The position numbers and the translations under genes were made by a program. This document shows positions 14,974 to 25,645 of a stretch of 52,656 nt of DNA, piece after piece (within the stretch, counting starts at the first letter, position 1; each line of letters opens with the position of its first letter). This DNA comes from Polyangiaceae bacterium (GTDB lineage: Bacteria > Myxococcota_A > Polyangia > Polyangiales > Polyangiaceae): NCBI GenBank assembly GCA_020846005.1, contig JADLEQ010000069.1, positions 1 through 52,656 of the forward strand, given 5' to 3'. The notes under the pieces are model-generated. The model was not told the DNA's origin. It did not search any database and saw nothing but the letters and a program-made list of their open reading frames with translations.

Positions 14974-16323
14974 TCAGTCGCCGCCCGGCGCCGCGGGCGG
15001 GACCGGGGTGGTGCCCGCGGTGTCCAGCTCGATGGGGACCATCGGCCCGCGGAGGCGGGGGCCGCGGCTCACCCACAGCCGGCGGGCGCGGGTGTCGAGG
15101 ACGACGCCGTGGGCGGCGAGATCGGCGTCGATGGCGCGGCGGTCTCCTGGCGGGAGGGGGGTATCTCCGGCTCCCTGACGATCGCGCAACCACGCGGTGA
15201 GCTGTTCGACCGTCACCGGCCCGCGCCGCCGCGCGAGCAGCTCCTCGCCGCGAGCCCGGCGATCGCGCGTGGAGGTGCCGCGCTCGACCGCCAGGTTCCG
15301 GGGATCGCCCCGCGCGGGTCCCTCGAGGTGGTTCGTCACCACCGCCGCGGTGCCGAGCTCACGGACGTGCTGGGGGCGGCCGGGGACGCGCTCGATGGCC
15401 ACGGCGCGGCCGCTCGCGTCGGCCGCGATCACGAGGTGGCTTACCATCGGCTCGCGCGCCGCGAGCGCGGCGATGGCGCCAGGCACGTCTGCGGCCGTGG
15501 TGAGCACCCGCCGGAGGGCGTGCACGAGCGGCTCACCCGAATCGCGGGGCTCGCCAGCGCGCGCGCCGTGCACGACGACCGCGAGGCCGTCCTCGTTCAT
15601 GCCCGAGATGACACCCACGAGCCCCGCCCACGCCACCGAAGCGAAGCGGCGCCCCCCCGCAGGCGCGACCACGAAGACGACCTTGCGCTCGTCGAACACC
15701 GGGTCGATCTCGAAATCGAAGGTGCGCGCGAGCAGCGCGCCGCCACCGGCAGCGTCGGCGCCCGCGACCACGAAGCTCGTGCAGCCCACGAGCGGGGAAC
15801 CCTCGAAGCCGAGCGCGATGTCGTAGAGCGCGTTCAGGTGGACGAAGCGCTCGAACGTCGGCGCGCGCGATGCGAAGGGGTCGGGGGCGAACGCCTCCGC
15901 CTGAGCCGCGATCTCGATCAGGCGGTCCGGACCCATGCCCTGATCGAGCGCGCGGTAGCGCACGCGCGCCAGGTCGAGCACCGCGGTACGCAAGATCACC
16001 GACGGTACGAGCCGCTCGAACGACGCCCAAACGCTCTGCTCCGTGCGCACCATCTCGTCTCGCAGCAGCCGGGCGTGCGCCCGCCCGATCTCCGCCGGCT
16101 CGCCCCCGAGCCGGACGACGAGCACGCCGCCTTCCTCCCGCGTGGAGGCGGGATACAGGGGCATGCCAGCTACGGGCGGGGGCACGGGAGGAGGCCGGAA
16201 CCCGCCGACCCGCCCGGCGACGAGGTGCGCCGTCTCGAGCAGCGCGGCCGCGCCGAGCAGCGCGATCCCGGCGGCTCGCGCCACGCGACCCGCGGCGCGA
16301 GCCCGAGCGCCGACAGCGTTCAT
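14974..16323 (-). CDS. C45/choloylglycine hydrolase-like Ntn hydrolase
   Basis: A 449-residue protein with an N-terminal hydrophobic helix (about residues 17-38), so it is membrane-anchored or exported. The motif LVGCTSFVVAG places a cysteine at residue 181 as the probable N-terminal nucleophile exposed after autocleavage. The following RTFDF, GLVGVISGMNEDGLAVVVH and TNH segments match acyl-CoA:6-aminopenicillanate acyltransferase-type (C45) and related conjugated-bile-acid hydrolase-like proteins, which cut or transfer amide-linked acyl groups. The substrate is unknown. Its ATG overlaps the stop of the upstream glycosyltransferase gene (ATGA), so the two are co-translated. Confidence 0.78.
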   Translation of the reverse strand: MNAVGARARAAGRVARAAGIALLGAAALLETAHLVAGRVGGFRPPPVPPPVAGMPLYPASTREEGGVLVVRLGGEPAEIGRAHARLLRDEMVRTEQSVWASFERLVPSVILRTAVLDLARVRYRALDQGMGPDRLIEIAAQAEAFAPDPFASRAPTFERFVHLNALYDIALGFEGSPLVGCTSFVVAGADAAGGGALLARTFDFEIDPVFDERKVVFVVAPAGGRRFASVAWAGLVGVISGMNEDGLAVVVHGARAGEPRDSGEPLVHALRRVLTTAADVPGAIAALAAREPMVSHLVIAADASGRAVAIERVPGRPQHVRELGTAAVVTNHLEGPARGDPRNLAVERGTSTRDRRARGEELLARRRGPVTVEQLTAWLRDRQGAGDTPLPPGDRRAIDADLAAHGVVLDTRARRLWVSRGPRLRGPMVPIELDTAGTTPVPPAAPGGD

Positions 16324-17700: not shown

Positions 17701-18204
17701 TCAGCGGCGGGAACGCTTGCCCGCGGCGCGCTCGGCCCGGCACCTCGCGCAGGTGCCGTAGAGCTCGTGCTTGTGGTGTCTCACCTCGAACCCGTGGCGC
17801 GCCGCGAGCTGCGCCTGGATCTCCTCGATGGCGGGCTCCTCGAACTCGATGATGGTGTCGCACTCGAGACAGATGAGATGATCGTGGTGCGCGTCGTCAT
17901 CTGCGAGCTCGTAGCGGGTGAAGCCGTCCCCGAACCGGCGCTCGTGCGCGATGCCGCCCTGCGCGAGCATCTTCATCGTCCGATACACCGTGGCGTAGCC
18001 GATCCGCGGATCGACGCCGCGCACCACGCGGAGGAGCTGATCGATCGTGACGTGCTCGGGCGCCTCGAAGAACTTCTCGATGATCAGCCGGCGCTGACCC
18101 GTCGAGCGGAGCCCCTGGCGCGCCATGTGCTGCTCGACCGCCTTGCGCAGCCGGGCTCGATCCGGCTCGCGGACGACGCCTTCCACGGAAGCCCCGTGAC
18201 TCAC
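17701..18204 (-). CDS. Fur family transcriptional regulator
   Basis: A 167-residue DNA-binding regulator of the Fur/PerR/Zur superfamily. The winged-helix part contains GLRSTGQRRLIIEKFF and the recognition region DPRIGYATVYRTMKML. The dimer domain has the metal site FTRYELADDDAHHDHLIC. Two CxxC pairs (CLEC and CARC) suit a structural zinc. Whether iron, zinc, manganese or peroxide is sensed cannot be told. GTG 18204 gives a 26-residue extension before Met27; either start is possible. It is the last gene of the minus operon, 31 bp after the ATPase-like gene, so it could regulate metal genes including that neighbour. Confidence 0.92.
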   Translation of the reverse strand: MSHGASVEGVVREPDRARLRKAVEQHMARQGLRSTGQRRLIIEKFFEAPEHVTIDQLLRVVRGVDPRIGYATVYRTMKMLAQGGIAHERRFGDGFTRYELADDDAHHDHLICLECDTIIEFEEPAIEEIQAQLAARHGFEVRHHKHELYGTCARCRAERAAGKRSRR

Positions 18205-18235: not shown

Positions 18236-20413
18236 TCAAGCCGCGGGGAGGGATCGACCGACGATTCGCACCCGCAGCAGCGCTGCGGCGCCGCCCAGGA
18301 TCCCGGCCACCGGACAGACCACGGGCGGCACCATCCCGAGCGCCGCGGTCAGGCCAGCGAGCGCGCTCGGAGCGAGCACGAGCCCGACGGCGACCAGCGC
18401 CTCGGCCCGCGCGCGACGGCTCACGGCGAGCGCCAGGGCGGCGTCGCGGACCTCGCCGGACGCCAGCGAGAGGCCGAAGTCCGAGCCACCTCCGCCCGCG
18501 GCGCCGAGCGCGACCGAGACGTCCGCGGCGGCCAGCGCGCCATCGTCCCTCGGGGTTCGCCCGACCACCGCGACGCGCGCGCCCGTCTCGGTGAAGTGCC
18601 GCACCACCTCCGCGCGATCGTGGAGCGGGACCTCGGCGCGGACGTGGTCGATGTCCAGCGCGCGGCCGACCGCCTCGCAGGTCTCCCGCGAGTCGCCGCC
18701 GACGAGCACGGGCTCGATGCCGGCGTCCAGTAGGTGACGGATCGCGGCCCGCGCGCCGGAACGGATCGCGTCCTGGAAGGAGAGGACGGCCGCGGGGTGG
18801 CCATCCACCGCGACGAGGATCACGGTGCGGCCGGCGGCCTCCGCCTCGCGGACCAGCGGCTCCGCGACGCCCGTCCCGACCGCCTGTCCGAGCAGCGTCG
18901 TCCGGCTCCCGACGGCGACCCGCCGCCCTCGGGCGTCCGTCGCGGTGACCCCGAAGCCGGGGAGCCGCTCGACGCCGCGCAGCAGCTCCGGGCGGATCCC
19001 GCGCGTGCGCGCCGCGCTCGTGAGCGCGGCGTCGAGCGGGTGGTCCGAGCCGAGCGCGGCGCCCGCCGCGAGCGCGAGCGCGTCGTCCGCGTCGTGGCGC
19101 CCGAGCCCGTGGACACCGACGAGATCTGGCTCCCCCGCGAGGAGCGTCCCGCGAGCCTGGATCATCGCCACCGTGACACGCGACGCGGCGTCGAACGCCT
19201 CGACGGATCGGTACGACACTCCCCGCGCCGCGAGCGCGAACACGGCGCCTCCGGTCAGCACCCCGACGGATCCAGCGACGCCGCTCGCGGCGAGCGCCGA
19301 CTGCACCCCGATCGCCGACAGCGCGAGCTCGGAGGGCTCGAGACCGGCGGCGTAGCCGACGAGCGCGCAGCCGCCCGCGATGAAGGGCGCGAGCGGCTCC
19401 GCGAAGAGCCGGGCTGCCCGCACGACCTCGGCGTGCACGTCGGCCCGCCGGAGCGGGTCGCAAGTGAGGCGGTACCACGCCCGATCGGGACCCGCGGCGG
19501 TGACGAGGAGGGTGAGTTCACCCTCGACGACGCGCGCCCCGGCCACGATCGGGTCCCCCGGAGCGCGCGCCTCCGTGACGGCCGCGCCGAGCCACGGGGC
19601 CACGATCGCGTCGCCGCGCGTCACTCGACCGTCGGCGAGGACCGTCTCCCCGACGGCGACGGTGATCTCCTCGCCCGGGCGCAGCCGCAGGGCCGGCACG
19701 GGCTCGCCGGAGGCGCCCTCGCGCCGAGCCCAGCCGCCGAGGGCGCGCTCGACCCGCTCGCGCCCCGCCACGAGCGCGCGCCGCTCGCGCCGGAGCGCCC
19801 ACGCCGCGGCCGCCGCGCAGCCCGTCACGACCGCGGCCAAGGTGAGCAGCGACTCGAGCGGCGATCCGCCGCTGACGCGCGCGACCCCCGCGCCGCCGGT
19901 CGCGAGCACCGGCGCGGCGAGGAGCGCGAGCGGGTGGGCGTCGCCTGCGTCGCGGGGCGCGAGCGCATACTCCGCCACCAGCGCGGCGAGCGCGACCGCC
20001 GCGATCACGAGCCGCGCCGTCGCGATCGCCGGAGCTCCGCCGGCCAACGCGAGCGCGAGCGACGCGAGGCACCCGGCCACGCACATCCCGAGGAGGAGCC
20101 CACCGAGCTCGGGCGCGGGCGCTGCGTGCGCCGGGTCGTCCGGGAGGGGACCGGCGGCGGGGAGCGCCGGGAGGGGAGGCGCCGGCGCGGACGGAGAGCG
20201 CGGCGCGGGCGCGAGCGGGGGCGCCTCGATGGGCGGGACGTAGCCCTCGCGGCACCCCGAGCTGCAGAAGTACCGAAACGTCCCCCCGTAGAGCGCCACT
20301 CTTGGCGCGCGCAGCGCGTCGACGGTCGCGCCGCACGTCGCGCAGCCGACTCGCTCGCCGCGCGGCCCCGCCGGCGCGGCGGCCAGCCGGGCGGCGGCGG
20401 GCGCCTCAGCCAT
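18236..20413 (-). CDS. P1B-type ATPase homologue lacking the catalytic Asp (probable pseudoenzyme)
   Basis: A 725-residue membrane protein with the domain order of heavy-metal P-type ATPases but with key motifs lost. An N-terminal YHS/TRASH-like metal ribbon has C24-x2-C27 and C50-x3-C54. Hydrophobic helices lie around residues 100-220 and 335-405, and at the C-terminus. The DKTGT phosphorylation motif is replaced by QARGT (residues 419-423) inside an otherwise recognisable IQARGTLLAGEP. HP is kept (GSDHPLDAAL), the GD..TA loop is kept (GGDSRETCEAVGRALDID), the GDGxNDAPAL hinge is degraded to GRTPRDDGALAAADV, TGES is not seen, and no CPC is present in the membrane helix. The frame is intact and codon use is normal, so it is not a decayed gene. 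ATP-driven transport is not possible by the known mechanism. A metal-sensing or scaffold role is inference. The start overlaps argF by 8 bp. Confidence 0.85.
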   Translation of the reverse strand: MAEAPAAARLAAAPAGPRGERVGCATCGATVDALRAPRVALYGGTFRYFCSSGCREGYVPPIEAPPLAPAPRSPSAPAPPLPALPAAGPLPDDPAHAAPAPELGGLLLGMCVAGCLASLALALAGGAPAIATARLVIAAVALAALVAEYALAPRDAGDAHPLALLAAPVLATGGAGVARVSGGSPLESLLTLAAVVTGCAAAAAWALRRERRALVAGRERVERALGGWARREGASGEPVPALRLRPGEEITVAVGETVLADGRVTRGDAIVAPWLGAAVTEARAPGDPIVAGARVVEGELTLLVTAAGPDRAWYRLTCDPLRRADVHAEVVRAARLFAEPLAPFIAGGCALVGYAAGLEPSELALSAIGVQSALAASGVAGSVGVLTGGAVFALAARGVSYRSVEAFDAASRVTVAMIQARGTLLAGEPDLVGVHGLGRHDADDALALAAGAALGSDHPLDAALTSAARTRGIRPELLRGVERLPGFGVTATDARGRRVAVGSRTTLLGQAVGTGVAEPLVREAEAAGRTVILVAVDGHPAAVLSFQDAIRSGARAAIRHLLDAGIEPVLVGGDSRETCEAVGRALDIDHVRAEVPLHDRAEVVRHFTETGARVAVVGRTPRDDGALAAADVSVALGAAGGGGSDFGLSLASGEVRDAALALAVSRRARAEALVAVGLVLAPSALAGLTAALGMVPPVVCPVAGILGGAAALLRVRIVGRSLPAA

Positions 20414-21323
20414 CCACGCCCAACGCCCAGACGAGCGCAGCCTTGGCGGTGTGCAGCCTGGCCTCGGCCTGATCCCACACCGCCGAGCGCGGGCCCTCGA
20501 GCACGTCCGCGTCGATCTCCTCGCCTCGATGCGCGGGCAAGCAGTGGAGGACGACCGCGTCCGCCGATGCGCGCGCGACCAGGCGAGAGGTGACCCGGAA
20601 TCCCTCGAACGCCGCCAGGCGCGCGGCCGCCTCGCCCTCCTGACCCATGCTCGTGAACACGTCGGTGCTCACCACGTCGGCGCCCGTGACGGCGCGCTCG
20701 GGATCCCGAACCACCTCGACGCGGCCGCCGCGCTCACGCGCGAGCTCGACGGCGCGGGCGTCCGGCTCGTACCCCTCGGGGCACGCGAGCACGAGCTCGA
20801 GCCCGAGCAGGCCCGCCGCCTCGATCCAAGACCAGGCCATGTTGTTGCCGTCGCCGATCCAGACGTACCTGAGCCCCTCGAGACGCCCGCGGATGCGGCG
20901 TATGGTCATGAGATCGGCGAGCAGCTGCATGGGGTGGCTGCGGTCGGTGAGCGCGTTGAGGACCGGCACCCCGCTCCAGCGCGCCATGTCGAGCAGCCGA
21001 TCCTCCCCGCCCGTTCGGAACGTGATCGCGTGCGCCATCCGCCCGAGCACCCGGGCGGTGTCCGCCACCGGTTCGCCGCGCGCCATCTGGGAGCCGGAGC
21101 TGGTGAGCACGAGCGGGTGCCCCCCGAGCTCGGCCACGGCGACCTCCAGGGACACCCGCGTCCGCGTGGAGGCCTTCTCGAACACGAGGGCGATCGTCTT
21201 GCCCGCGAGAGGGCGCGCCGCCGCGGGCGCACCGCGCGTCTCGAGCCAGCGGTCGCTCGCGTCGAGCAGCCGGACGAGGCCCTCACGGCCCAGATCGGCC
21301 AAGCCGAGCAGGTGGCGCGTCAC
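20406..21323 (-). CDS. argF: Ornithine carbamoyltransferase
   Basis: A 305-residue cytosolic enzyme making citrulline from ornithine and carbamoyl phosphate in arginine biosynthesis. It has the carbamoyl-phosphate motif STRTR at residues 52-56, the HPMQLLADLMTI segment that binds carbamoyl phosphate, DGNNMAWSWIEAAGLLG, and the ornithine-site HCLPAHRGEE near residue 265. The length is normal. The GTG start overlaps the ArgD stop (GTGA). Downstream, its last 8 bases overlap the start of the ATPase-like gene. Carbamoyl-phosphate and argininosuccinate genes are not in the window. All active-site residues look intact. Confidence 0.95.
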   Translation of the reverse strand: MTRHLLGLADLGREGLVRLLDASDRWLETRGAPAAARPLAGKTIALVFEKASTRTRVSLEVAVAELGGHPLVLTSSGSQMARGEPVADTARVLGRMAHAITFRTGGEDRLLDMARWSGVPVLNALTDRSHPMQLLADLMTIRRIRGRLEGLRYVWIGDGNNMAWSWIEAAGLLGLELVLACPEGYEPDARAVELARERGGRVEVVRDPERAVTGADVVSTDVFTSMGQEGEAAARLAAFEGFRVTSRLVARASADAVVLHCLPAHRGEEIDADVLEGPRSAVWDQAEARLHTAKAALVWALGVDG

Positions 21324-23434
21324 GGCAGCCCCCGGAGCACGCGCTCGACCACCTCGACACCCTCGTCGAGCTCGTCGCGCGTGACGGTGAGGGCCGGCGA
21401 GAAGCGGAGCCCCTGCCCGCCAGCGATCGTGAGCAGCACGCCGGCCTCCCGCACGCGCTCGAGGACGCCGCGCGCGTCCACGTCACGCGCGAGCACCAGC
21501 GCCTGCAGGAGTCCGCGACCGCGCGCCTGCTCCACCCGCCCTGGCGCCGAGGCCGCGACGGCGGCCAGGCGCTGCGCGAGGTGCTCGCCGAGCGACCGCA
21601 CGCGCTCGAGGAGCGAGTCCTCCTCCAGCGCGTCCAGCACCGCGAGCGCCGCGGCGCTCGCGAGCGGCCCGCCGCCGAAGGTCGAGCCGTGGGTGCCCGG
21701 CGGCAGCGCGGCGGCGAGCGCCTCGCGACAGACCACCGCGCCGATGGGTACCCCTCCCCCGAGCCCTTTCGCGAGCGCCACGGCGTCCGCCAACACGCCC
21801 TCCTGTTGCACGGCGAGGAACGTCCCGGTGCGGCCCACGCCCGTCTGCACCTCATCCGCGAAGAGCAGCGCGCCGTGCGCGTCTGCGATCCGACGGAGCG
21901 CGGCGAGGAAGCCGAGGGGGGCCGGGCGGACGCCCCCCTCTCCCTGGATCGGCTCCACCAGGATGGCGGCCACGTCGGGCCCCATCGCGCGCTCCACCGC
22001 CGCCTCGTCGCCGTACGGGACGTGTCGCGCGCCCGGGAGATCACCGAACCCCTCCTGGTACTTGGGCTGCCCGGTGACGGCGAGCGCCCCGAGCGTCCGG
22101 CCGTGGAACGACTCGTCGAACGCGAGCACCACCCGGCGCGCCGGCTCGCCACGCGAGTGGAAGTGTCGCCGCGCCAGCTTGAGCAGCGCCTCGATGGCCT
22201 CCGTCCCCGAGTTGCAGAAGAACGCACGGTCCATCCCCGAGGCGGCCGTCAGCCGGGCGGCGAGGCGGAGGTTCGGCTCGTTGAAGAAATAGTTCGAGGT
22301 GTGGACGAGTCGGGCCGCCTGCTCGCTCAGCGCGCGCACCAGGCGCGGGTGCGCGTGCCCGAGGGAGCTCACGGCGATCCCGGCACACAGATCCAGATAA
22401 CACCGCCCCGCGGCGTCCCAGACGCGGCTGCCCTCCCCGCGCACGAGGACGAGGGGCGGCTGCCGGTAGTTCGGATAGAGGTGCTCCGACGCGAGCGCGA
22501 GCAGGGCGGGCTGGGGATCGTCCGCGGTCGGGAGTCGAGCGGCGTTCGACATGGGGGCGCCAGCGTACGAGGCAGGGCGCGGATCGTCCACCAGCGAGCG
22601 GCGGGAGCCGCGGGCGGCGAGGAGCGCGCGCGCGATCTCGACGAAACCGGCGGCCCGAGGCGCCCGCGCGAGGTACCGGGGCGGGAGGGTGAGGTCGCCG
22701 CGGAGGTTTGCGACGCCGAACGTCAGCGCGAACGCCGCGAACGCCGCCGCGTCGTTGCCGCTGTCGCCTACGTACGCCCAGCGGGCGCGCGCGGCCGCTG
22801 GGTCGAGCCCGCGCAGGCGGGCGAGCGCCCAGAGCGCCCCGGTCGCCTTGTCGGCGCCGTCCAGGGTAACGTGCAAGTGGAGGCTCGAGGTGGTCGTGCG
22901 CGCCCCGAGCGCGCGCGCCGTCCGCCTCGCCGCGACGACCAAGGCCTCGGGGGCCCGCAGGCGCTCCCCCACGTCGAACGTGTGGTCCGTGAGGCGGAGC
23001 GGCGTGTCGTCGGCGTCGCGGAGCTCCGGGTGCCGCGCCCTGAGCTGGGCCACGAGGTCGGCGAGCCTCCGGCGACGCTCGGGGCGCGCCCCGCCCCCCG
23101 GGTCGAGGAGCTCGACGTGCTCACCCCTCCGGGCGTGGACGATGGCGCCGTTCTCGCTCACGACGGCGAGCACGGGCCACTGGCGCGCCAGCGGATCGCC
23201 CCACCCCGCGGGCCGCCCGGTGACGACGCCGAGCGCGAGCCCCGCCCCCGCGAGGTCGTGGAGGACGCGGTAGGCGTCGGGCGCGAGCCGCCCGTGATCG
23301 AGGAAGGTGTCGTCGAGATCGAACAGCAGACCGTCGATCGCGCGCGCCTCGCCCGGCTCGAGGGAGTCGAGCGAGAGGAGCCGTCCTCGGCTGGCTCGTC
23401 CCGGCGAGCCACGCGGGCCGGTGGCCCCCGTCAC
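21320..23434 (-). CDS. argD: HAD-family phosphatase domain fused in frame to acetylornithine aminotransferase
   Basis: A single open frame of 704 codons. Residues about 1-290 are a HAD-IIB-type hydrolase: LLFDLDDTFLDHG (motif I D-x-D-x-T), GVVTGRPAGWG (motif II), DKATGALWAL (Lys, motif III), YVGDSGNDAAAF (motif IV). With no stop codon the frame runs on into MSNAARLP, the usual start of class III aminotransferases, then FCNSGTEAIEALLKLARR, FHGRTLGALAVTGQPKYQ, LFADEVQTGVGRTG, and the PLP lysine in ALAKGLGGG. The internal ATG at 22552 has TACGCT 9 nt upstream (22562-22567), so a separate 410-residue ArgD may also be made. The GTG at 23434 overlaps the RlmI stop. ArgD converts N-acetylornithine and 2-oxoglutarate to N-acetylglutamate semialdehyde and glutamate. 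Confidence 0.88.
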   Translation of the reverse strand: MTGATGPRGSPGRASRGRLLSLDSLEPGEARAIDGLLFDLDDTFLDHGRLAPDAYRVLHDLAGAGLALGVVTGRPAGWGDPLARQWPVLAVVSENGAIVHARRGEHVELLDPGGGARPERRRRLADLVAQLRARHPELRDADDTPLRLTDHTFDVGERLRAPEALVVAARRTARALGARTTTSSLHLHVTLDGADKATGALWALARLRGLDPAAARARWAYVGDSGNDAAAFAAFALTFGVANLRGDLTLPPRYLARAPRAAGFVEIARALLAARGSRRSLVDDPRPASYAGAPMSNAARLPTADDPQPALLALASEHLYPNYRQPPLVLVRGEGSRVWDAAGRCYLDLCAGIAVSSLGHAHPRLVRALSEQAARLVHTSNYFFNEPNLRLAARLTAASGMDRAFFCNSGTEAIEALLKLARRHFHSRGEPARRVVLAFDESFHGRTLGALAVTGQPKYQEGFGDLPGARHVPYGDEAAVERAMGPDVAAILVEPIQGEGGVRPAPLGFLAALRRIADAHGALLFADEVQTGVGRTGTFLAVQQEGVLADAVALAKGLGGGVPIGAVVCREALAAALPPGTHGSTFGGGPLASAAALAVLDALEEDSLLERVRSLGEHLAQRLAAVAASAPGRVEQARGRGLLQALVLARDVDARGVLERVREAGVLLTIAGGQGLRFSPALTVTRDELDEGVEVVERVLRGLP
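22553..22567 (-). promoter_or_regulatory. Possible internal -10 box for a separate ArgD
   Basis: On the minus strand TACGCT (22567-22562) stands 9 nt before the internal ATG at 22552, inside the HAD-ArgD frame. It is the same layout as the boxes in front of independent genes here. It would give a leaderless transcript for ArgD alone. Confidence 0.4.
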
Positions 23435-24621
23435 GGCGGCTCGATCCGCGCCACGACCGAGGAGAGATAGAGCCCCTCGGGGAACGCCGCCGGCACCGGG
23501 TGATCCGGCCCCTGGAAGGCTCGCTCCAGGACGACCGCGCGACGCCCCACCTCGCGCGCTCCAAGCGCCAGCGAGCGGACGAGCAGGTCCATCGAGACCG
23601 CCGCCGAGCACGAGCTCAGCACGACGAGCCCGCCCCCTCGCGCAGCGCGACACGCACCCTCGGACAGCCGGCGCATCACCGACGCGGCCCGATCGCGCGA
23701 CGCGCGGCTGGGCGCGAGCTTGGGCGGATCGACGAGCACCAGATCGAAGCCCCCCTGCCGCCCCGCGCGCGCGAGCGCCTCGTGGGCGTCCTCGCAGTCG
23801 AAGCGGACCTTGCCCGCGAGGCCGTTCGGCCCGAGCTGCTCCGCGGCCACCTCGATCGCCGCGGGCGACGAGTCGACGGCGACCACCTCCATCGCGCCTC
23901 CTCGCGCCGCGGCCAGGGAGAACGAGCCGGTGAAGCAGTGGACGTCGAGCACCCGGCGCCCGCGCGCCAGCGCCTCCACGCGAGCGCGGAGCTCGCGCTG
24001 ATCGAGGTAGTGGCCCGTCTTCTGCGCGATGGCGAGCGGGACGCGGAAGCCGAACCCCCGCTCGCGGAATTCGAGCGCCTGCAACGACTCGTCCCCCCGC
24101 ACGACCCCGCGCGCCGGCTCGAACCGCTCGAGGCGCGCCGCCGTCGGGCTCGTTCGGTCGACGATCGCCCGCGGGCGCAGCGCTCGCTCCAGCACGTCGA
24201 AGATCTCGCGCTCCCGGAGCTTCATCCCGAGGGTCGCGAGCTGCACGCAGAGCACGTCGCCGTAGCGATCGACGACCAGTCCGGGCAGGTCGTCCCCCTC
24301 GGCGTGCACCACACGGTACGCGCTGGTGTCGGCGCTCGGCAGGCCGAGCTCGGCGCGGTGCGCGACCGCCGCCTCGACCCGGCGCGCCACGAGCCCCGGG
24401 TCGATCGGCTCCGCGCCGCGCGAGAGCAGGCGCACCGGGATCGCCGAGCCCGGCGAGTAGTACCCGCGCCCGAGCACGTTGCCGCGCGCGTCGCGCACCT
24501 CGACCTCGTCGCCGGGAGAGGCGCCGCCCTCCACCCGCTCGACCGCCTGCGCGTACACCCAGGGGTGCCCGGCCCACAGCGGCCGGACGTGACCGGCGCG
24601 GATCACTACGCGCCCGGTCAA
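23431..24621 (-). CDS. RlmI-type class I SAM-dependent rRNA methyltransferase
   Basis: A 396-residue protein of the RlmI/YccW family, which methylates cytosine in 23S rRNA. The N-terminal PUA-like domain begins GHVRPLWAGHPWVYAQAV and includes GNVLGRGYYSPGSAIPVRLLS. The central part has GDDLPGLVVDRYGD. The Rossmann domain shows VLDVHCFTGSFSLAAA (motif I), EVVAVDSSPAAI, and the catalytic DPPKLAPS. It ends with HPVPAAFPEGLYL. No ATG fits the N-terminus. TTG 24621 is used, and GTG 24606 is an alternative. It is first in the five-gene operon leading into argD. The length matches the family. Confidence 0.88.
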   Translation of the reverse strand: MTGRVVIRAGHVRPLWAGHPWVYAQAVERVEGGASPGDEVEVRDARGNVLGRGYYSPGSAIPVRLLSRGAEPIDPGLVARRVEAAVAHRAELGLPSADTSAYRVVHAEGDDLPGLVVDRYGDVLCVQLATLGMKLREREIFDVLERALRPRAIVDRTSPTAARLERFEPARGVVRGDESLQALEFRERGFGFRVPLAIAQKTGHYLDQRELRARVEALARGRRVLDVHCFTGSFSLAAARGGAMEVVAVDSSPAAIEVAAEQLGPNGLAGKVRFDCEDAHEALARAGRQGGFDLVLVDPPKLAPSRASRDRAASVMRRLSEGACRAARGGGLVVLSSCSAAVSMDLLVRSLALGAREVGRRAVVLERAFQGPDHPVPAAFPEGLYLSSVVARIEPP

Positions 24622-24749
24622 GGTGACGCCCCGCGGTCGAGCGAGTCGTGGAACACACGCGGCGCGTAGGCCCGCCCCGCGCCGGCGTGAAGAGCGCCGC
24701 GGCCGCGGCGGGGGGCCCGCGCGCGGCTGGCCCGTGGCCGCGACATTGC

Positions 24750-24755
24750 TAGGCT
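24750..24755 (+). promoter_or_regulatory. -10 box, leaderless layout
   Basis: TAGGCT lies exactly 8 nt before the GTG at 24764, where a signal peptide starts. It is the only such hexamer near the start. The frame upstream of it is Arg/Gly-rich non-coding-like sequence. Confidence 0.5.
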
Positions 24756-24763
24756 CCGGGCTC

Positions 24764-25645
24764 GTGCACGCGCGGCTCCGCTTCAGCTCCGCCCTCCTCG
24801 GCGCCACCTGCGCGGCGATCGGATCGCGCGCCGCGCTGGCGCAGCCCGAGGCGCCGGAGGCGGCGCGCGCGGAGCCCACGGAGTCCGCAGACTCCGCGGA
24901 CGGTGCGGCCGAGGAGCCGCCAGATGCCTGCCCGCCCGGCGGATGGTACTGCGAGGACGACGCCGAGCCCGCCGGCGAGGCGGACGGCACGCCCGCCTCA
25001 CCCGAGGCGGGCGCGGACGAGCCGCCTGCGATCGTGGTGGCGCGAGGGGAGCACGCGCCCGCGCCCGCGCGCCGCCGGCGGCCGCCTCGTTGGGGGATAC
25101 ACGCCCGCGTCCAAGGCGTGGTCCTGGGCGGCGGCGGTGACGGCGGCGGCGACGGCCCCCACCCAGACGCCGGCATGGCGGGCTTCGGCGCCAGCTTCCG
25201 CTACCGGGCGCTGCCCGAGCTCGCGCTCGACGCGGGCCTCGACTTCTTCCGCGGCGTCGATTTCGACGGGTGGGCGCGTGCCGAGACCGCGGCCACCGGG
25301 AGCCTGGTGCTCTACGCCAACCCGCGTGATCCGGCTCAGATCTACCTGATCGGCGGGCTCGGCTTCTCCGGCGCGGTGGTCGACAAGCCCGCGCTGCAGT
25401 GGGACCCGGCGGACGGCGAGCGCGGCGACACGCAGTACTCGTACTTCGGCGGCCACCTCGGGATGGGGCTCGAGCTGCGCCTGTCGCGGCGCACGGGCTT
25501 CACCGTCGACCTCCTCGGGTTCCTACGGTCGCGGACGGACGTGGAGGGCGCCGGAGACTACGAGTACGTCGACTCCGTGACCGGCCGCCGCACGAACTCC
25601 TCGGGGGCGGGGCTCGTGCGCTTCGGGCTGCTCTTCTCCTGGTGA
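24764..25645 (+). CDS. Putative outer-membrane beta-barrel protein with acidic linker
   Basis: A 293-residue exported protein. The signal peptide (ending in RAALA) is followed by a Glu/Ala/Asp-rich linker of about 80 residues with a CPPGGWYCEDD cysteine pair, then a basic patch and a beta-rich Gly/aromatic domain (FGASFRYRALPELALDAGLDFFRG, YLIGGLGFSGAVVDK, YFGGHLGMGLELRL). It ends in GLVRFGLLFSW, a barrel-like C-terminus. It resembles small myxobacterial porin-like proteins, and no specific family is claimed. The frame is open upstream, but GTG 24764 begins the signal peptide and has TAGGCT 8 nt before it. A strong hairpin follows at 25687..25730. Confidence 0.72.
   Translation: MHARLRFSSALLGATCAAIGSRAALAQPEAPEAARAEPTESADSADGAAEEPPDACPPGGWYCEDDAEPAGEADGTPASPEAGADEPPAIVVARGEHAPAPARRRRPPRWGIHARVQGVVLGGGGDGGGDGPHPDAGMAGFGASFRYRALPELALDAGLDFFRGVDFDGWARAETAATGSLVLYANPRDPAQIYLIGGLGFSGAVVDKPALQWDPADGERGDTQYSYFGGHLGMGLELRLSRRTGFTVDLLGFLRSRTDVEGAGDYEYVDSVTGRRTNSSGAGLVRFGLLFSW

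Follow-up and report, generated by a model that had tools for sequence, protein, structure and literature searches.

The defining feature of P-type ATPases is an aspartate that becomes phosphorylated. Among pseudoenzymes, pseudokinases, by comparison, bind nucleotide without catalysis. Among the P-type ATPases, the Cu+-transporting P1B pumps (CopA) are the closest matches, in both sequence and fold, to the protein described here, and some bacterial Cu-ATPases also carry YHS/TRASH domains. The YHS domain of the M. phlei adenylyl cyclase has been described as probably sensing copper (PMC4626032), and a review asks if P1B pumps could serve as transceptors, and at what point such functions emerged (PMC10654040).

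We analysed a gene from a window (the whole stretch of 52,656 nucleotides given above) whose product resembles the CopA-type P1B ATPases (CopA; TIGR01511/TIGR01525; PDB 3rfu, 7r0g, 3a1c) in having A, P and N domains, eight helices in P1B order, and the HP and GxG motifs of the N-domain. Unlike these pumps, it has no phosphorylatable Asp, TGES, CPC or GDGxND, its NCBIfam score falls below the cut-off, and its helices are unconserved. As in pseudokinases, the catalytic residues are gone, while selection has kept the fold along with part of the nucleotide site. We refer to the protein as a pseudo-P1B-ATPase, or pseudo-pump. The preliminary description of this DNA knew of no named family of this kind, and none turned up here: Pfam and NCBIfam hold no model specific to the pseudo-pumps, and a search of the open-access literature returned no paper on a pseudo-P-type ATPase of this kind, although this is weak evidence, as most subscription journals lie outside that search.

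The gene and the domains of its product

The pseudo-P1B-ATPase gene (P0001) lies at 18236..20413 on the minus strand (20413..18236), encodes 725 aa, and was assigned through Pfam, NCBIfam and its family members. Minus-strand translation gives 725 codons from an ATG start with zero internal stops, and the GC3 of 0.92 equals that of argF and argD. The clean frame and normal codon use of the preliminary description are thereby confirmed, as is its account of the gene, apart from the strand, which it left unstated. The gene order in the window is argD, argF, pseudo-ATPase, fur, which agrees with the placement between argF and a Fur-family gene proposed earlier. The gene for ornithine carbamoyltransferase, argF (20406..21323, minus; Pfam, NCBIfam), runs with its end 8 bases into the start of the pseudo-ATPase gene. 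The argD gene (acetylornithine aminotransferase family; 21320..22552, minus) was named by inspection with its start inferred, and argD adjoins the gene in relatives. The Fur-family regulator gene (17701..18204, minus; Pfam PF01475, E 3e-32) begins 31 bases past the pseudo-ATPase stop.

Pfam recognizes E1-E2_ATPase and HAD hydrolase domains in the protein, and the NCBIfam models for heavy-metal P-type ATPases match far under their cut-offs (167.6 bits against a cut-off of 346.25 for TIGR01525). At the N-terminus, cysteine conservation, spacing and weak Pfam matches point to a YHS/TRASH-like finger with C24, C27, C50 and C54 (residues 21-58; 20240..20353, minus). It is followed by the transmembrane helices MA, MB, M1 and M2 (residues 103-225; 19739..20107, minus), placed by hydropathy and the structure model and no longer conserved; by the A-domain (residues 228-310; 19484..19732, minus; Pfam PF00122 and motif table), which is without TGES; and by helices M3-M4 (residues 341-396; 19226..19393, minus), from which, according to motif comparison and conservation, the CPC metal motif is missing. 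The motif alignment places the CAG codon of Gln419 (19157..19159, minus) at the phosphorylated Asp of DKTGT. The N-domain, or nucleotide domain (residues 429-540; 18794..19129, minus), retains GxG and G502 and has near-invariant R479, R504 and E525; like the second part of the P-domain (residues 541-655; 18449..18793, minus; D574, R576, R600, R619, D623), it was delimited with motif tables and the model match. R619 stands where GDGxND has its first Asp, a position occupied by R or H in the family. Helices M5-M6 (residues 655-721; 18251..18451, minus) were assigned from hydropathy, the model and conservation.

Loss of the catalytic and metal-binding motifs

In the window protein DKTGT has become QARGT, with Gln419 (CAG, 19157-19159) replacing the phosphorylatable Asp, and TGES, CPC and GDGxND are all absent, as had been reported in the preliminary description. 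Of the motifs it listed as retained, HP is present (residues 458-459), but GD..TA is matched only roughly, the actual residues being GGDSRETCEA.

We scored the motif columns over 121 relatives plus the window. The column of the catalytic Asp contains C in 84 sequences, S in 15, L in 10, A in 4, N and V in 2 each, and Q, M and F in one each, with two gaps and D in 0 of 120. Across the family the site reads C/S/L-x-(R/H)-G-T; the Q-x-R-G-T form, whose conservation had been proposed as a check, is not conserved, and Gln at this site is limited to the window among the homologues. The Thr of DKT is replaced by Arg (98) or His (14), and the Lys of PEDK is Arg in 112 homologues. The first Asp of GDGxND has become R (55), H (49) or another residue, and is D in 0 of 120; the last Asp is retained in 119. 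Where TGES would stand, the window has LGAAV, and the Glu column holds Ala in 90 of 122 rows and Glu in a single one. The motif table shows the CPC metal motif of M4 to be lost in the window and the family. At the same time the family has near-invariant residues of its own (R479, R504, E525, D563 and R576). Summed over nine active-site positions, the net charge averages +1.1 in the family and is +3 in the window, compared with -3 in a canonical comparison protein; judging from the aligned residues, the former active site has turned basic.

In each of the 22 canonical P1B pumps used for comparison (19 from the host's order, including one from the window's own genome, and 3 from other parts of the phylum) DKTGT, CPC, GDGxND and a TGE-type motif in the A-domain are intact, and no form intermediate between these 22 and the pseudo-pump family was seen. 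With these motif losses shared by about 120 homologues, the pattern is far beyond chance. No close homologue with an intact DKTGT was found, which speaks against a mutation confined to the window. On the strength of these alignments the family almost certainly does not pump.

Looking only at the most frequent residue, one could assume that Cys substitutes for the catalytic Asp in an unorthodox active transporter or phosphotransferase, since Cys occupies the site in 84 of 120 sequences (70%) and the fold is intact. However, other members have Leu, Ala, Val or Phe at this position, the Mg-binding Asp has been exchanged for Arg or His, and TGES and the residues of the ion path are lost. We consider a Cys nucleophile very improbable for the family; for the window, which has Gln at the site, an active pump with an alternative nucleophile is rejected.

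Distribution, phylogeny and selection

The search for relatives recovered orthologues from the majority of genomes in the host's family and order. Among 133 genomes from the order to which the host belongs (probably Polyangiales), at 90% completeness or better, at least 115 contain the pseudo-pump, so that related genomes do not lack it. The 18 apparent absences are an overcount: two genomes (G018 and G290) have the finger after argF/argD, one (G012) has a divergent copy (L107), and some absences are contig ends. Sampling of about 120 genomes from the phylum's other orders (class-mates and phylum-mates) yielded no family member. Outside the order, no match in the phylum was better than 2e-41, and the three strongest loci taken (L102-L104) are canonical pumps with DKTGT; an extension of the family beyond the order is therefore not supported. 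A scan of genome contigs with patterns taken from the window's own protein, not from the family, gave weak matches only (about 27-32% identity).

The pseudo-pumps are monophyletic (UFBoot 100) on a long stem (0.92), and the window's own branch is also long. In close pairs dN/dS ranges from 0.12 to 0.43 (rough Nei-Gojobori values for GC-rich genes), and these ratios indicate that the family is under purifying selection. Columns conserved at 80% or more make up 2%, 0% and 8% of the three helix groups in the pseudo-pumps versus 22%, 48% and 51% in the canonical pumps, whereas the corresponding figures are 29% versus 16% for the N-domain and 37% versus 40% for the P-domain. The pseudo-pump family is the more diverse of the two sets (mean identity 0.42 versus 0.53). 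The loss of conservation in the helices, together with its persistence in the cytoplasmic domains, suggests that the ion path is without visible constraint and that the cytoplasmic domains remain constrained. The earlier proposal of selection for a non-pumping role is thus strongly supported, by the order-wide presence of the gene as well as by the lack of an intact DKTGT in close homologues.

The motif loss in the window and its long branch, taken by themselves, would fit a pseudogene in decay, or a normal pump hit locally by a chance mutation. However, open frames and purifying selection extend across an order, R479, R504, E525 and D563 are invariant features specific to the family, and there is no intact close homologue. 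This explanation has a negligible probability, and the family analysis (motifs, dN/dS and order-wide presence) rules it out.

Structure model and the nucleotide site

An AlphaFold2 model built from 36 sequences has a mean pLDDT of 91 and a pTM of 0.83. Cu-type P1B ATPases rank first in a Foldseek search with this model. In VIA-align comparisons the P and N domains superimpose on CopA bound to AMPPCP-Mg with a Z of 28.8 and 1.5 Å over 264 residues, and the model aligns with the full-length Cu pump 7r0g with a Z of 26.8 and 5.5 Å over 612 residues. The eight-helix P1B layout is consistent with both hydropathy and the model, and the A, P and N domains are present. The protein thus appears to descend from a Cu-type heavy-metal pump, with the whole pump fold retained and the residues for phosphorylation and membrane metal binding gone.

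In the N-domain of the window protein H458, P459, G486 and G488 are present, i.e., HP and GxG are retained. Across the family GxG occurs in 118 of 120 sequences; 117 of 122 combine GxG, G502 and R504, and 70 have E, H, GxG and G all together. The model and the retained residues make nucleotide binding by the N-domain plausible. It may nevertheless be weakened, as the His of HP is present in 79 of 121 homologues, and hence lost in about one third, and the Glu preceding this His is Ala in the window.

The N-terminal finger

The CxxC/CxxxC finger noted in the preliminary description is present at the N-terminus. Most members share the spacing CX2C-X22-CX3C (residues 24-54 in the window) and a DPLRA signature, and all four Cys occur in 109 of the 112 homologues in which the region is aligned. 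The 2-22-3 spacing is the same as that of D178, C181, C204 and C208 in the M. phlei YHS domain (PMC4626032). In contrast to known YHS/TRASH domains, the finger carries DPLRA as a family-specific signature, and its Pfam matches in the window (DUF7576, TRASH and zf-FCS) are weak and below the curated cut-offs. From the conserved cysteines we infer that the finger is a binding site for a metal ion, either Zn or Cu; alternatively, it may be purely structural.

A proposed receptor or scaffold derived from a pump

We favor, as the somewhat more probable explanation, that the pseudo-P1B-ATPase is a non-pumping, membrane-anchored, ligand-binding receptor or scaffold derived from a P1B ATPase. The helices would then mainly serve as a membrane anchor, and the cytoplasmic finger would bind Zn or Cu. 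The N domain would still bind nucleotide or a similar ligand, and the former Mg/phosphorylation pocket, lined by Arg/His instead of Asp, would hold a phosphate group or an anion without Mg. Binding of the ligand would shift the A, N and P domains, a partner would read this shift out, and the output would go to the enzymes of the operon or to Fur. The step from ligand binding to a sensor or scaffold is one that we purely infer. The most specific version, in which an entire P-type ATPase has become a membrane receptor that combines a metal finger with nucleotide or metabolite binding and regulates or anchors arginine biosynthesis, is tentative.

If the protein is indeed a receptor, the family would be, as far as we could find, the first pseudoenzyme family described in the P-type ATPase superfamily. 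The order-wide loss of all catalytic and ion-binding motifs from a fold that is still selected represents a natural experiment on other uses of the A/P/N machine. The pseudo-pumps are also a candidate for a bacterial case of the transceptor type, and one that is directly testable. Annotation of these genes as heavy-metal pumps would misstate their function.

Genomic neighborhood and possible outputs

The neighborhoods were compared over 121 relative loci, twelve of which stop at contig edges. Of the 121, 29 have a same-strand Fur gene downstream (about 30 of 122 with the window), and 6 more have one on the other strand. The suggestion that a Fur gene always follows is therefore not borne out, and Fur as a constant partner is rejected as a general rule; arginine genes are the commoner neighbors. 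The window's genome has four Fur-family genes (17701-18204 in the window, and one each on contigs C48, C85 and C62 of G000), of which the copy next to the pseudo-ATPase gene matches the Pfam FUR model best.

These counts bear on the reading given in the preliminary description, a membrane metal sensor or a regulatory partner of a real pump, taken here to include joint action with the downstream Fur. The conserved four-Cys YHS/TRASH-type finger, spaced as in the adenylyl cyclase domain, makes a sensor possible; Fur is immediately downstream in the window and in those 29 relatives, and a genuine Cu-type pump (L001) exists elsewhere in the window's genome. However, about three quarters of the homologues have no adjacent same-strand Fur, the membrane metal site is gone, the finger may be structural only, and the neighbors are arginine genes, with no metal pump or chaperone noticed beside the pseudo-pump gene in the loci read. 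We saw no link to a pump, and regard a metal-sensor role, which overlaps with the general ligand-binding explanation, as rather unlikely.

Arginine-biosynthesis genes adjoin the pseudo-pump gene in 89 of the 121 loci (about 90 of 122 with the window). Two arrangements predominate: argD and/or argF are upstream in 63, and argH, often with lysA, is directly downstream in 24; in 2 further loci argH/lysA are otherwise nearby. The pseudo-pump gene is probably co-transcribed with argD-argF or argH-lysA, and its function is therefore probably linked to that operon, whether the protein is a regulator, a sensor or a scaffold at the membrane. In a more restricted form of the receptor explanation, the protein is dedicated to arginine biosynthesis: its remodelled P/N pocket would bind a nucleotide or a metabolite that is phosphorylated or anionic, and the protein would control or anchor the enzymes of the operon. 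The recurrence of arginine neighbors in two arrangements, the overlap with argF, the basic pocket, and an N-domain more conserved than in real pumps are all in its favor. Nevertheless, 14 loci with adequate flank have neither arginine genes nor Fur, including several of family f6 (L065, L066 and relatives), the metal finger is left unexplained, and the linkage could be positional inertia of an ancient gene cluster. This arginine-linked role, which likewise overlaps with the general ligand-binding explanation, is a possibility that we put forward with reservation. The argD-argF pairing is old and found outside the order too; the gene may therefore have entered an ancestral argD-argF-argH-lysA cluster that was later split.

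Other genes recur in these neighborhoods. In the window, a block comprising an RlmI-like rRNA methyltransferase, a HAD-type phosphatase, argD and argF (20406-25176, minus) precedes the pseudo-ATPase gene, and it is kept in many relatives (e.g., L046, L050 and L060). In two loci (L055 and L059) the pseudo-ATPase gene comes after the RlmI-like gene in a neighborhood without argD/argF. In other families of the order (L069, L073, L081, L125 and L126) argH and lysA begin within a few bases after the pseudo-pump gene, a second and different arginine/lysine linkage. A further gene (14974-16323 in the window, minus; tabulated as AAT), which may encode an acyltransferase/peptidase-like protein, travels with the cluster in several relatives.
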